Shown: positions 29,855-62,340 of the stretch, piece by piece
Numbering within the stretch: position 1 is the first letter of the stretch
How the letters are laid out: every line of letters starts with the position of its first letter
Source of the DNA: an uncultured Eubacteriales bacterium
GTDB lineage: Bacteria; Bacillota; Clostridia; Oscillospirales; Oscillospiraceae
Assembly (NCBI GenBank): GCA_900314485.1
Contig: OMVL01000001.1
Coordinates: forward strand, 1 to 64,000
DNA: 64,000 nt
Direction: 5' to 3'
Made by a program: the position numbers and the translations under genes
The notes under the pieces: generated by a model
What the model was told of the DNA's origin: nothing
Database searches by the model: none
Seen by the model: the letters and a program-made list of their open reading frames with translations, nothing else

Positions 29855-29882
29855 TTGCGAAAAGACGAAATTTGTTCATAAT
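29855..29882 (+). promoter_or_regulatory. Candidate promoter of the clpE leader
   Basis: TTGCGA (29855-29860), 16-base spacer, CATAAT (29877-29882). An alternative pair is TTGTTC (29873-29878) and TAACAA (29895 onward). No CtsR-type GGTCAAA repeat was found. Confidence 0.35.
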
Positions 29883-29939
29883 TTTGTGATAAGCTAACAA
29901 AAAACTGGCGAGTCAGCTCCGTCTATCAGGAGGAATCGT

Positions 29940-30059
29940 GTGACAGATCACGCTGTGATCGCATTTGAGGCGTACTGCTCACCCCCTGCGGGGCAACCGC
30001 AGCGCATGCCAAAATCTCCATCTGCCGCTTATGGAGATTTTTATTGTGATCGGTGCTGA
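29940..30059 (+). CDS. Leader ORF of 39 codons before the ClpE-like gene
   Basis: A GTG start at 29940 has a perfect AGGAGG (29928-29933) six bases upstream, and the frame runs to TGA at 30057-30059. The predicted peptide starts MTDHAVIAFEAYCS, is Pro-rich in the middle and ends FYCDRC, so it has Cys13 and a terminal CxxC (Cys36, Cys39). It is soluble and matches no family I know. Its last third is translated through the terminator-like hairpin at 30011-30041 and it stops 27 bases before the clpE ATG. It is most likely a regulatory leader peptide, or a small protein; decay of a duplicated clpE start is the alternative. Confidence 0.5.
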   Translation: MTDHAVIAFEAYCSPPAGQPQRMPKSPSAAYGDFYCDRC

Positions 30060-30084
30060 CATGAAGCGGCAGAATGGAGATTTT
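30011..30084 (+). promoter_or_regulatory. Mutually exclusive hairpins upstream of clpE
   Basis: The segment 30011-30030 can pair two ways. With 30031-30041 it makes an 11-bp stem AAAATCTCCAT/ATGGAGATTTT with a 9-base loop and a following U-rich tract, like a terminator. With 30064-30084 it makes a 20-bp stem with one bulged A that buries the GGAG of clpE. The 14-base ATGGAGATTTTTAT occurs twice (30031 and 30074). Confidence 0.6.
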
Positions 30085-30085
30085 T

Positions 30086-32656
30086 ATGCAGCCTGTACTG
30101 TGTTCGAAATGCCATAAAAATATGGCTGTGATCTTTGTCACGAAAATGGAAAACGGGGAGTCCAAGAATGAGGGCTACTGCCTGAACTGCGCCAAGGGAA
30201 TGGGCATTAAGCCTGTGGATGACCTGCTGAGCAAAATGGGTATCTCAGAGGACGATGTGGAAAACCTGACCAATGAGATGATGTCCGCCTTTGGCGGCCC
30301 CGAGGCGCTGGAGTCCATGATGGAAAACCAGGGGCAGCCGGTGGAGGATGACGACGAGCAGGAAGAGGGCAAGACTGCCACCTTCCCCTTCCTCAGCCGC
30401 CTTTTCGGCGGCCAGAACAGCCAGAAGGAGGATGCTCCCTCTGCCAATCCCGGCCGCAAGCAGGAGCAGAACGGCCGCAAGGACGGACCTGACCCTAAAA
30501 ACCAGAAGCGGAAGTTTTTGGAGAACTACTGCATCTGTCTGACCCGGCGCGCCCGCGAGGGCAAGCTGGACGGCGTCATCGGCCGGGACGAGGAGATCGC
30601 CCGTGTCATGCAGATCCTGAACCGCCGCCAGAAGAACAACCCCTGTCTCATCGGCGAGCCCGGCGTGGGTAAGACCGCCATCGCAGAGGGTCTTGCCCTG
30701 CGCATCGTCTCCGGCAATGTGCCCTATAAGCTGGTGGACAAAGAGGTCTATCTGCTGGACCTGACCGCCCTTGTGGCCGGCACTCAGTTCCGGGGTCAGT
30801 TTGAGAGCCGGATGAAGGGGCTGATCGAAGAGGTCAAGCGCATCGGCAATATCATCCTTGTGATCGACGAGGTCCACAACATCGTGGGCGCCGGCGACGC
30901 AGAGGGCTCCATGAACGCCGCCAACATCCTCAAACCCGCCCTCAGCCGTGGAGAGATCCAGGTCATCGGCGCCACCACCTATAACGAGTACCGGAAGTAT
31001 ATCGAAAAGGATGCTGCGCTTGAGCGGCGTTTCCAGCCCGTCAATGTGGCCGAGCCGTCTATTGACGACACTACTAAAATTCTGGAGGGTATCGCCCACT
31101 TCTATGAGGACTACCACCAGGTCATTATCCCCAAGCCGATCCTCCGCAATGCGGTGACCCTCTCCGAGCGATACATTACCGATCGGTTCCTGCCGGATAA
31201 GGCCATTGACCTCATTGACGAGGCATGCTCGGATGTCAACCTGCACAACAAGACGCTGGCCCGTCTGGCTGCCATCCACAAGGAGCGGGCGGACCTTGCC
31301 AAGGAGCGGGAGCTGATTCTGTCCGCGCAGGAGCAGCAGTCCACCGAGCGCTCCGCCAGGCTGAAGGAGAATGAGCAGAAGCAGTCCCGCTGCCGCCAGC
31401 AGCTCAGCGCCATCAACCACGAGGCCATGAGCCTGCAAAACGACCTGTCTATTGACTCCCAGCGCCGGGAAGAGCGCCTGCGCCTGATCAGCCAGCACTC
31501 AAACCAGCTGCGCAGTGAGCTGCAGGAGCTGCAGGATGAGCGCAGTGCCCTTCAAAACGTCCCTGAGGACGACCGGGGCTACGAGCGCATTGCTCACCTG
31601 CGCAGTCTGGAACTGCGTCTGGACGAGGAGGAGGCCGCCCTCAACGAGGTGGGGCGTCCCACCCTGGAGCTGGAGAATCTGGCTCGGGTCATCGAGCTTT
31701 GGACCAATATCCCCGCCAGCCGCATCCAGGAGGAGGAGTTTGCCCGCCTGAATGAACTGGACACCCGGCTGAAACAGCATATCATTGGCCAGGACGAGGC
31801 GGTGGACGCCGTCACCCGTGCCATCCGCCGCAATCGTGTGGGCATCTCTCCTAAGCATAAGCCCGTCTCCTTCATCTTCGTCGGCTCCACCGGCGTGGGT
31901 AAGACGGAGCTGGTCAAGCAGCTGGCCCAGGACCTGTTTAACAGTCCTGAGTCCCTCATCCGTCTGGATATGTCGGAATTTATGGAGAAGCATGCCGTCT
32001 CACGGATCGTCGGCTCTCCTCCCGGCTATGTGGGCTATGATGAGGCCGGGCAGCTGACCGAGAAGATCCGCCGCAAGCCCTACTCCGTGGTCCTCTTTGA
32101 CGAGATCGAAAAGGCTCACCCTGACGTACTGAACATCCTGCTTCAGATTCTGGACGACGGCCAGATCACTGACGCCCACGGCCGTAAGGTCAATTTTGAA
32201 AACACTGTCATTGTCATGACCTCCAACGCCGGCAGCGGCAGCCAGACAGGCAGTGTGGGCTTCGGCCGCTCCGCTCAGGAGCAGGACAAGGAGAAGACGA
32301 TGAAGGCCCTTCAATCCTTCCTGCGGCCGGAGTTTATCAACCGTGTGGACGAGATCGTCCACTTCAACCGGCTCAGTGAGGAGAACTTTAAGGGCATTAC
32401 GGGCATTATGCTCCGGGAGCTTCAGGCCTCTCTCCGGGAGAAGGAGATTGACTTCACCTGGGACGACGCTCTGGTGGAATACCTGACCCACAAGTCCTAT
32501 TCCGTGACCTACGGCGCCAGGAATCTGCGCCGTCTGATCCAGAAGGAGCTGGAGGACGAGATCGCTCAGTATCTGATCCAGCACTATGAGCATCCGATCA
32601 GCAAGCTGACCGCCACCGTCCGGGAGGACAAGATCGTCCTCGCAGGCGAGTGGTAA
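30086..32656 (+). CDS. ClpE-like ATP-dependent Clp protease ATP-binding subunit
   Basis: An 856-residue Hsp100 unfoldase. Instead of the usual ClpC N-domain it starts with a McsA/ClpE-type zinc finger (Cys6, Cys9, Cys32, Cys35), then a low-complexity charged linker to about residue 145, AAA domain 1 (GEPGVGKT), a coiled-coil middle region of about 120 residues, and AAA domain 2 (GSTGVGKT). The VGF loop in GSVGFGRS is the ClpP-docking tripeptide, so it should work with ClpP. The long coiled coil is nearer ClpB than B. subtilis ClpE. The ATG at 30086 has GGAG six bases upstream; an in-frame ATG at 30074 overlaps that site. clpE is the closest name, not certain. Confidence 0.85.
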
Positions 32657-62275: not shown

Positions 62276-62340
62276 CTTCTTTACGGAAAAGAAAACAATG
62301 CCCCTTGCATATCGGGGAAAGCGGCAGAACGGAGCATGAG

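Follow-up and report, generated by a model that had tools for sequence, protein, structure and literature searches.

The clpE leader of an uncultured Oscillospiraceae bacterium as a probable member of a dispersed family of structured RNA modules and a candidate translational switch

How a gene for a ClpE-like unfoldase comes to be preceded by a long leader with two mutually exclusive stems, and what these stems may do, is the question raised by a locus in the window, i.e., the 64,000-nucleotide stretch of DNA from an uncultured Eubacteriales bacterium that was analyzed as a whole. A preliminary description of the locus had proposed that the progress of ribosomes through a 39-codon leader frame, perhaps responding to thiol or zinc stress or to heat, chooses between termination, an open and a closed clpE. 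The reading preferred here, with a probability of roughly 60%, is that the leader belongs to a dispersed family of structured RNA modules, and that this copy lies between the presumed old SD and the start codon of clpE and is likely a translational switch.

The leader in front of clpE and its relatives

The features of the locus are collected in Table 1. Pfam AAA domains were matched in the gene product, the top solved-structure match is named ClpE, and the translation contains an N-terminal Cys4 motif; no NCBIfam family scored above its cut-off. The ATG at 30086 is most likely the start codon, because the orthologues begin with MQP (MKP in some), and an ATG at 30074 was ruled out on the same ground. 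With GGAGA as the most likely SD of this start, the closed helix described below covers the clpE SD.

Table 1. Features of the clpE locus (positions in the window)
Feature	Position	Strand	Remark
Promoter-like stretch, extended -10 (TGATAAGCT)	29872..29895	+	Predicted; common to clpE relatives
Whole dispersed leader module	29927..30088	+	R3 match; ends with the clpE ATG included
AGGAGG	29928..29933	+	Presumed old clpE SD, upstream of the insert
5' hairpin GTGTGA-CAGA-TCACGC	29938..29953	+	Fits the corresponding hairpin in the module model
39-codon frame	29940..30059	+	GTG start at 29940, TGA at 30057-30059; not conserved
Core hairpin, internal loop UC/AACC	29969..30010	+	R1 match (model made without the window); covariation
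Anti-SD arm AAAATCTCCAT	30011..30021	+	Complements both 30031-30041 and 30074-30084
Loop CTGCCGCTT	30022..30030	+	Complements the bases just before the SD; pairs with 30064-30072
SD mimic ATGGAGATTTT, 3' arm of the open-state hairpin	30031..30041	+	Identical to 30074-30084
Pre-SD segment AAGCGGCAGA	30064..30073	+	Closed-state partner of the loop
clpE SD GGAGA	30076..30080	+	Within the closed helix (prediction)
clpE-like AAA+ unfoldase gene	30086..32656	+	

The AGGAGG, the six-base spacer, the GTG and the 39-codon frame of the preliminary description are all present in the sequence. The anti-SD arm and the SD mimic form a perfect stem of 11 bp that encloses a loop of 9 nt. This stem had been called terminator-like; the stem is real, but a consensus scan listed no terminator at 30011-30041, and termination as part of the device is not supported. 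The alternative pairing that had been proposed was confirmed: the 5' arm together with the loop (30011-30030) can form 20 bp with 30064-30084, leaving a single A bulged out. The stretch 29928-30120 has a folding z-score of -3.2, and none of 200 shuffled versions folded equally well.

The leader was compared with those of 28 clpE loci from the same genus. A promoter-like stretch with the same spacing pattern was readable in 27 of them, the remaining one (L023) being cut by the start of its contig. Between the -10 and the ATG, 24 relatives have 45-68 nt and three (L017, L032 and L033) have 118-171 nt; the window has 190 nt. The nearest relative, L007, whose ClpE is 92% identical, has a leader of 47 nt ending in AAGGAGGGTGCTT-ATG, and the window leader is 143 nt longer. 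When these loci were scanned with the covariance model R3 (see below), the window was matched and none of the 28 relatives was, one of which is unreadable; as far as the clpE gene is concerned, all 27 readable leaders of the genus are thus empty sites without the module.

The AGGAGG in the window, with its six-base spacer, has the same arrangement as the sequence before the ATG of the L007 clpE, and the two can be aligned by eye as SD and start. In the automatic alignment, a single main gap follows the shared promoter, but the precise boundary of the insert is not defined by it. Because the 27 readable relatives have no module and the nearest leader is only 47 nt long, the module was probably inserted between the old SD of clpE and its start codon, and we infer that this insertion is the derived state, rather than that the module was lost in all relatives. 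Of the role that the preliminary description gave to the AGGAGG, i.e., SD of a leader ORF, the motif itself stands, but the alignable AGGAGG of the nearest relative is the SD of clpE. Since neither the module nor the ORF is present in the 27 readable leaders, a comparison of orthologous loci does not sustain the ORF as a conserved regulatory element of clpE.

A module family in the Oscillospiraceae

In BLAST searches of the genus, the leader produced short matches at other loci. The part from 29968 to 30012 matched a dispersed repeat with a core hairpin, which had 15 pattern matches in five of 32 genomes of the genus and none in the reversed control. A covariance model of 10 core copies, R1, from which the window was excluded, recognized the core in the window with 41.2 bits (E 1e-7) as its sole match in the genome. 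At E-values up to 1, it had matches in nine of the 32 genomes of the genus. A scan of named genomes retrieved 36 stretches, mostly in Oscillospiraceae, Ruminococcaceae, Oscillibacter and other clostridial records. One stretch from Phycisphaerales, which overlaps an open frame of 620 codons, is probably due to chance. R2 found matches in 150 of 400 genomes of the family, representing 61 of 106 genera, with some copies arranged in tandem at distances of 105-117 nt. The model R3, constructed from 27 other loci and again without the window, matched the window leader over model positions 1-151 of 151 with 81.2 bits (E 8.6e-17 in the window and 2.4e-15 in its own genome). It matched in 146 of the 400 Oscillospiraceae genomes and 63 of the 106 genera. 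As at most seven candidates were scored per genome, R3 copies are undercounted, and the strict filters make all copy numbers lower bounds.

Neither BLAST nor R1, R2 or R3 detected a second copy of the module in the genome of the window. Rfam 15 yielded no match above threshold at the module; three matches were at chance level. In a search for a phage origin, the window leader and a module of genome G102 were unmatched in 50,697 phage records.

The elements of the module succeed each other in the order 5' hairpin, conserved core hairpin, anti-SD arm, SD mimic, linker and SD; also in L180 and L184, the same layout is found, with the anti-SD arm ahead of the start codon. The set of leaders was mostly selected with a leader-class pattern consisting of the end of the core, CTCCAT and GGAG, which detected window-like copies in further genomes as well. 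In G102, this pattern had 27 matches and the reversed control none; the ten places listed for this genome are all modules, nine with a called open frame behind. Outside G102, most of the listed matches were judged by eye not to be modules, and scattered genomes also contain matches to the reversed pattern. Without the window, 27 modules can be aligned over their full length, mostly with a 5' hairpin GTGA...TCAC, the core, CTCCAT, a linker, GGAG and a start codon. The letters of the core loop are invariant; the usual 5' hairpin is absent from L304 and L306 of G102. Several copies of the core precede genes with a separate SD or lie away from start codons.

The family has some further peculiarities. 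L302 and L303 directly follow the 3' end of another module, forming tandem units joined at the SD, and the 3' end sequence of L361 is repeated on its 5' side. The copies L350-L352, L355-L357, L359, L360, L364 and L365, from several genera, are closely alike, with the structure TTTTGCTATGCAAAAGCATAGCAAAA-core-AAAACTTCATGCGC...GCGCATGAAGTTTT and mostly no called start codon; they constitute a second class of repeat. A palindromic TATAAT is present inside the 5' hairpin of L248-L254, L259 and L308-L317 (such as GATATAATATCCGC...GCGGATATTATA), and these hairpins could overlap a promoter -10. The outer arms of the dispersed copies are alike, and no clean target-site duplication could be delimited. 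Together, the dispersal of the copies and the empty sites at one gene suggest that the module is, or has been, mobile.

The genes behind the modules are diverse. A Pfam match was obtained for 27 of 30 downstream proteins, to 27 different families without a common pathway, including PALP, rubredoxin, DHO dehydrogenase, Mur ligase, MreB, MoeA, TatD, IspD, homoserine succinyltransferase, class II tRNA synthetase and cyclophilin. If the module responds to a signal, this should therefore be a general one. At the junction of pyrK and pyrD, two genomes (L184, where pyrD was named by eye, and L344) have a module at the same place in which letters have changed and the pairing is kept. In both cases, the stop codon of pyrK is located inside the 5' hairpin, which therefore also encodes the end of a protein.

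Conserved pairing and competition for the SD

In an alignment of 11 diverse copies of the core, including that in the window, 96.4% of the cells are paired vs. 84.7% after shuffling. For 46 distinct R2 matches, the alignment of which was fitted to the model, the values are 99.0 and 82.1%. Over the entire module, 92.6% of the cells are paired in 27 aligned modules, vs. 75.0% in shuffles and at most 47.5% in slid structures. In the same 27 modules, the helix of the 5' hairpin is paired for 82.9%, with six of nine pairs changed on both sides, and the anti-SD:SD helix for 96.8%, with four of eight pairs changed on both sides. The invariance of CTCCAT and GGAG proves nothing here, since both were part of the search pattern; it is the changes around them that are informative. 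Thus, both the core and the anti-SD:SD helix covary, and the structural idea of the preliminary description, i.e., a competition between two stems over access to the clpE SD, holds: this competition recurs in other genomes with different letters.

Duplex energies agree with this picture. The anti-SD:SD duplexes of 28 modules have a mean energy of -29.3 kcal/mol with their own partners, of -19.2 with partners from other genera (sd 6.4, 556 pairs) and of -11.3 after shuffling, and the loop:pre-SD duplexes have means of -11.8 kcal/mol with their own and -7.7 (sd 4.0) with cross-genus partners. For the SD-mimic hairpin in 35 leaders, the mean is -11.4, vs. -7.9 (sd 2.5) across genera and -5.0 for shuffled sequences. 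In 17 dispersed copies, the SD-mimic stretch only reaches -4.3, and the 3' stem is still strong at -19.3. When the best R3 match of each of 30 genomes was considered, 12 of these copies being the window or loci used in A4, the mimic hairpin averaged -10.5 in 18 copies at start codons and -4.9 in the 12 others (p = 3e-4); among new copies only, the means were -10.4 for seven copies at start codons and -3.9 for eleven others. There are exceptions: L349 is a start-codon copy with almost no competitor (-2.1), and L367 (-15.9), counted among the others, is really the leader L328 with a shortened match. The SD duplex of L328 is weak (-14.7).

A competitor that is strong at start codons and mostly weak elsewhere points to a translational switch. 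The 3' stem is equally strong away from start codons, and part of its conservation therefore serves something besides translation. This has a bearing on an explanation that is unlikely but deserves serious attention, i.e., that the module is a selfish or structural DNA repeat of the MITE or REP type, in which the stems help it to spread or keep it stable, and the SD within the 3' arm arises incidentally and allows insertions to be tolerated, with no regulated switching. Such a repeat would account for the dispersed and tandem copies, a single genome having as many as 27 pattern matches, and for the retention of the 5' hairpin, the core and the 3' stem in copies away from start codons. It does not account for the bias of the competitor to start codons. 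Also at odds with it is a pair of modules before a radical-SAM gene in G327 and G412, which are identical at 160 of 167 positions vs. 255 of 304 in the upstream flank and 246 of 302 at the start of the gene, although copying between modules could explain this as well.

If the clpE leader is a translational switch, the anti-SD arm would pair either with the adjacent SD mimic, leaving the SD open, or with the clpE SD, closing it. During transcription, the local SD-mimic hairpin would form first, and the SD would be temporarily accessible. The longer helix would subsequently close the SD, unless a factor bound to the core, or a ribosome already present on the SD, holds it open. A short open phase would thus be followed by a stable closed phase, and the core, located next to the anti-SD arm, would be a natural decision point for a protein or a ligand. 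In minimum-energy folds of growing 5' fragments, the mimic hairpin is predicted for fragments ending from 30042 to 30076 and the closed helix for those ending at 30090 and beyond. We infer that the alternative folds may form in cells and set the translation of clpE, and the conserved core with its internal loop could be the sensor of some general signal.

A bolder version of the translational switch, which is possible but can be put forward only tentatively, is that the 160-nt element spreads in the Oscillospiraceae as a mobile switch, landing between SD and start codon, bringing its own SD with the toggle of anti-SD and SD mimic, and recruiting arbitrary genes (clpE, pyrD, a cysK-like gene, and genes for a Mur ligase and ThrRS, among others) into one regulon read by the core. 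No description of such an element was found in searches of the open-access literature, which included PMC8040213 and PMC3049150. If the switch works, it would represent a large family of cis-regulatory RNAs (146 of the 400 sampled genomes of the family) without an Rfam match and, as the copies precede functionally unrelated genes, would show that a post-transcriptional regulon can arise by insertion instead of point mutation. The near relatives without the module are natural controls, and one leader with defined changes in the pairing would make the switch directly testable.

Known systems and the remaining explanations

According to PMC3049150, the BOX, RUP and SPRITE elements of pneumococci are small interspersed structured repeats that are nearly confined to Streptococcus pneumoniae and its close relatives, and BOX elements are expressed and sometimes contain open reading frames. 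Like these elements and MITEs, the module is shorter than 200 bases, structured, multicopy, mostly intergenic, and can be modular. Unlike them, one class of module copies has the SD of the following gene at its 3' end and contains both an anti-SD arm and an SD mimic, and, in contrast to BOX, RUP and SPRITE, the module is found in 63 of 106 sampled genera.

The module also differs from a classical riboswitch or protein-bound leader that responds to one signal and is spread vertically rather than by insertion, an explanation that appears quite improbable. In translational riboswitches and protein-controlled leaders, access to the SD is controlled by an expression platform that adjoins a conserved core, and the module likewise has a conserved core beside a platform that is predicted to sequester the SD. 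The covariation of this core, its invariant loop letters and the module that two genomes share at the pyrK-pyrD junction would fit. However, no Rfam family was above threshold, the module is dispersed before genes that share no pathway, and it is missing at the 27 readable orthologous clpE loci of the genus.

Even less probable is the device of the preliminary description, in which translation of the 39-codon leader frame decides the fate of clpE. Leader-peptide attenuators contain a short frame that overlaps competing stems, and so does the leader in the window. Moreover, directly upstream of their first hairpin, 18 of 33 modules contain an SD-like tetramer, vs. 19 of 165 upstream windows (p = 2e-7), and ribosomes may load at this site. 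Unlike in attenuators, however, the frame is not conserved and no terminator was called. Among 19 modules with a frame behind an SD-like site, nine have a frame consisting of nothing but a start and a stop codon (GTG-TGA in eight, including the other frame of the window, and ATG-TGA in one). The remaining frames have 2 codons in three modules, 6 in L322, 12 in L330, 15 in L319-L321, 41 in L327 and 48 in L323. Their sequences are unrelated to each other and to that in the window, and the CDRC end is peculiar to the window. The idea that the leader ORF is a truncated duplicate of the ClpE N-terminus, which was considered by eye, was given up in favor of the module family. Hence, neither the leader peptide with its terminal Cys codons nor thiol or zinc sensing by such a peptide is upheld by a frame that varies from 1 to 48 codons, and the 27 readable clpE loci of the genus have no such leader. 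An SD-like site followed by GTG-TGA in the first hairpin is found in the window (29938-29943), L301, L305, L329, L331, L354, L361 and L363; this start-stop may serve ribosomes for standby or loading.

ClpE is a stress protein, and its SD is predicted to be sequestered, but an RNA thermometer in which heat melts the SD helix is hardly credible. In the full leader, the predicted cost of opening the SD decreases from 12.1 kcal/mol at 37°C to no less than 8.0 kcal/mol at 60°C, so that the fold stays closed on heating in silico, and modules precede genes without an evident link to heat. In five relatives without the module, which were folded in a shorter context, the predicted cost is 1.3-5.1 kcal/mol. 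Across 28 modules, it ranges from 0.8 to 15.5 kcal/mol (mean, 8.7), and therefore not every copy is expected to be tightly closed.

Some sequences resemble parts of the module. At 62319-62335 in the window, AAGCGGCAGAACGGAGC, with two mismatches relative to the pre-SD/SD segment of the module, lies immediately upstream of ATG codons that belong to another gene; a module was not detected at this site. A loop pattern, TGCCGYTTN{15,45}AAGCGGCAG, was abandoned with 15 matches vs. six in reversed controls, some of the matches being one inverted repeat counted on both strands. The recurring AGCGGCAGAATGGAG before pncB, lysS, nusB and murD (named by eye) was initially regarded as the signal of the family and is now no more than a lead. 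With one mismatch, AGCGGCAGAATGGAG had 42 matches in 32 genomes vs. none in reversed controls; a 16-base variant with two mismatches had 425 vs. 235. Several matches are in coding sequence. No copy of the core or module was found at these pncB-, lysS-, nusB- and murD-type loci by R1 or R3, the latter giving only two weak matches on the opposite strand. AGCGGCAGAATGGAG, which is (nearly) identical to the 3' end of the module, is present in the pncB-like leaders L037-L040, L043 and L044 and, in L054, L056, L063, L065 and L074, before lysS-, nusB-, murD-like and other genes of the genus. The AGCGGCAGAATGGAG loci may represent either decayed modules or convergence. The pncB-like leaders also contain a hairpin with a CUGCCGC loop.
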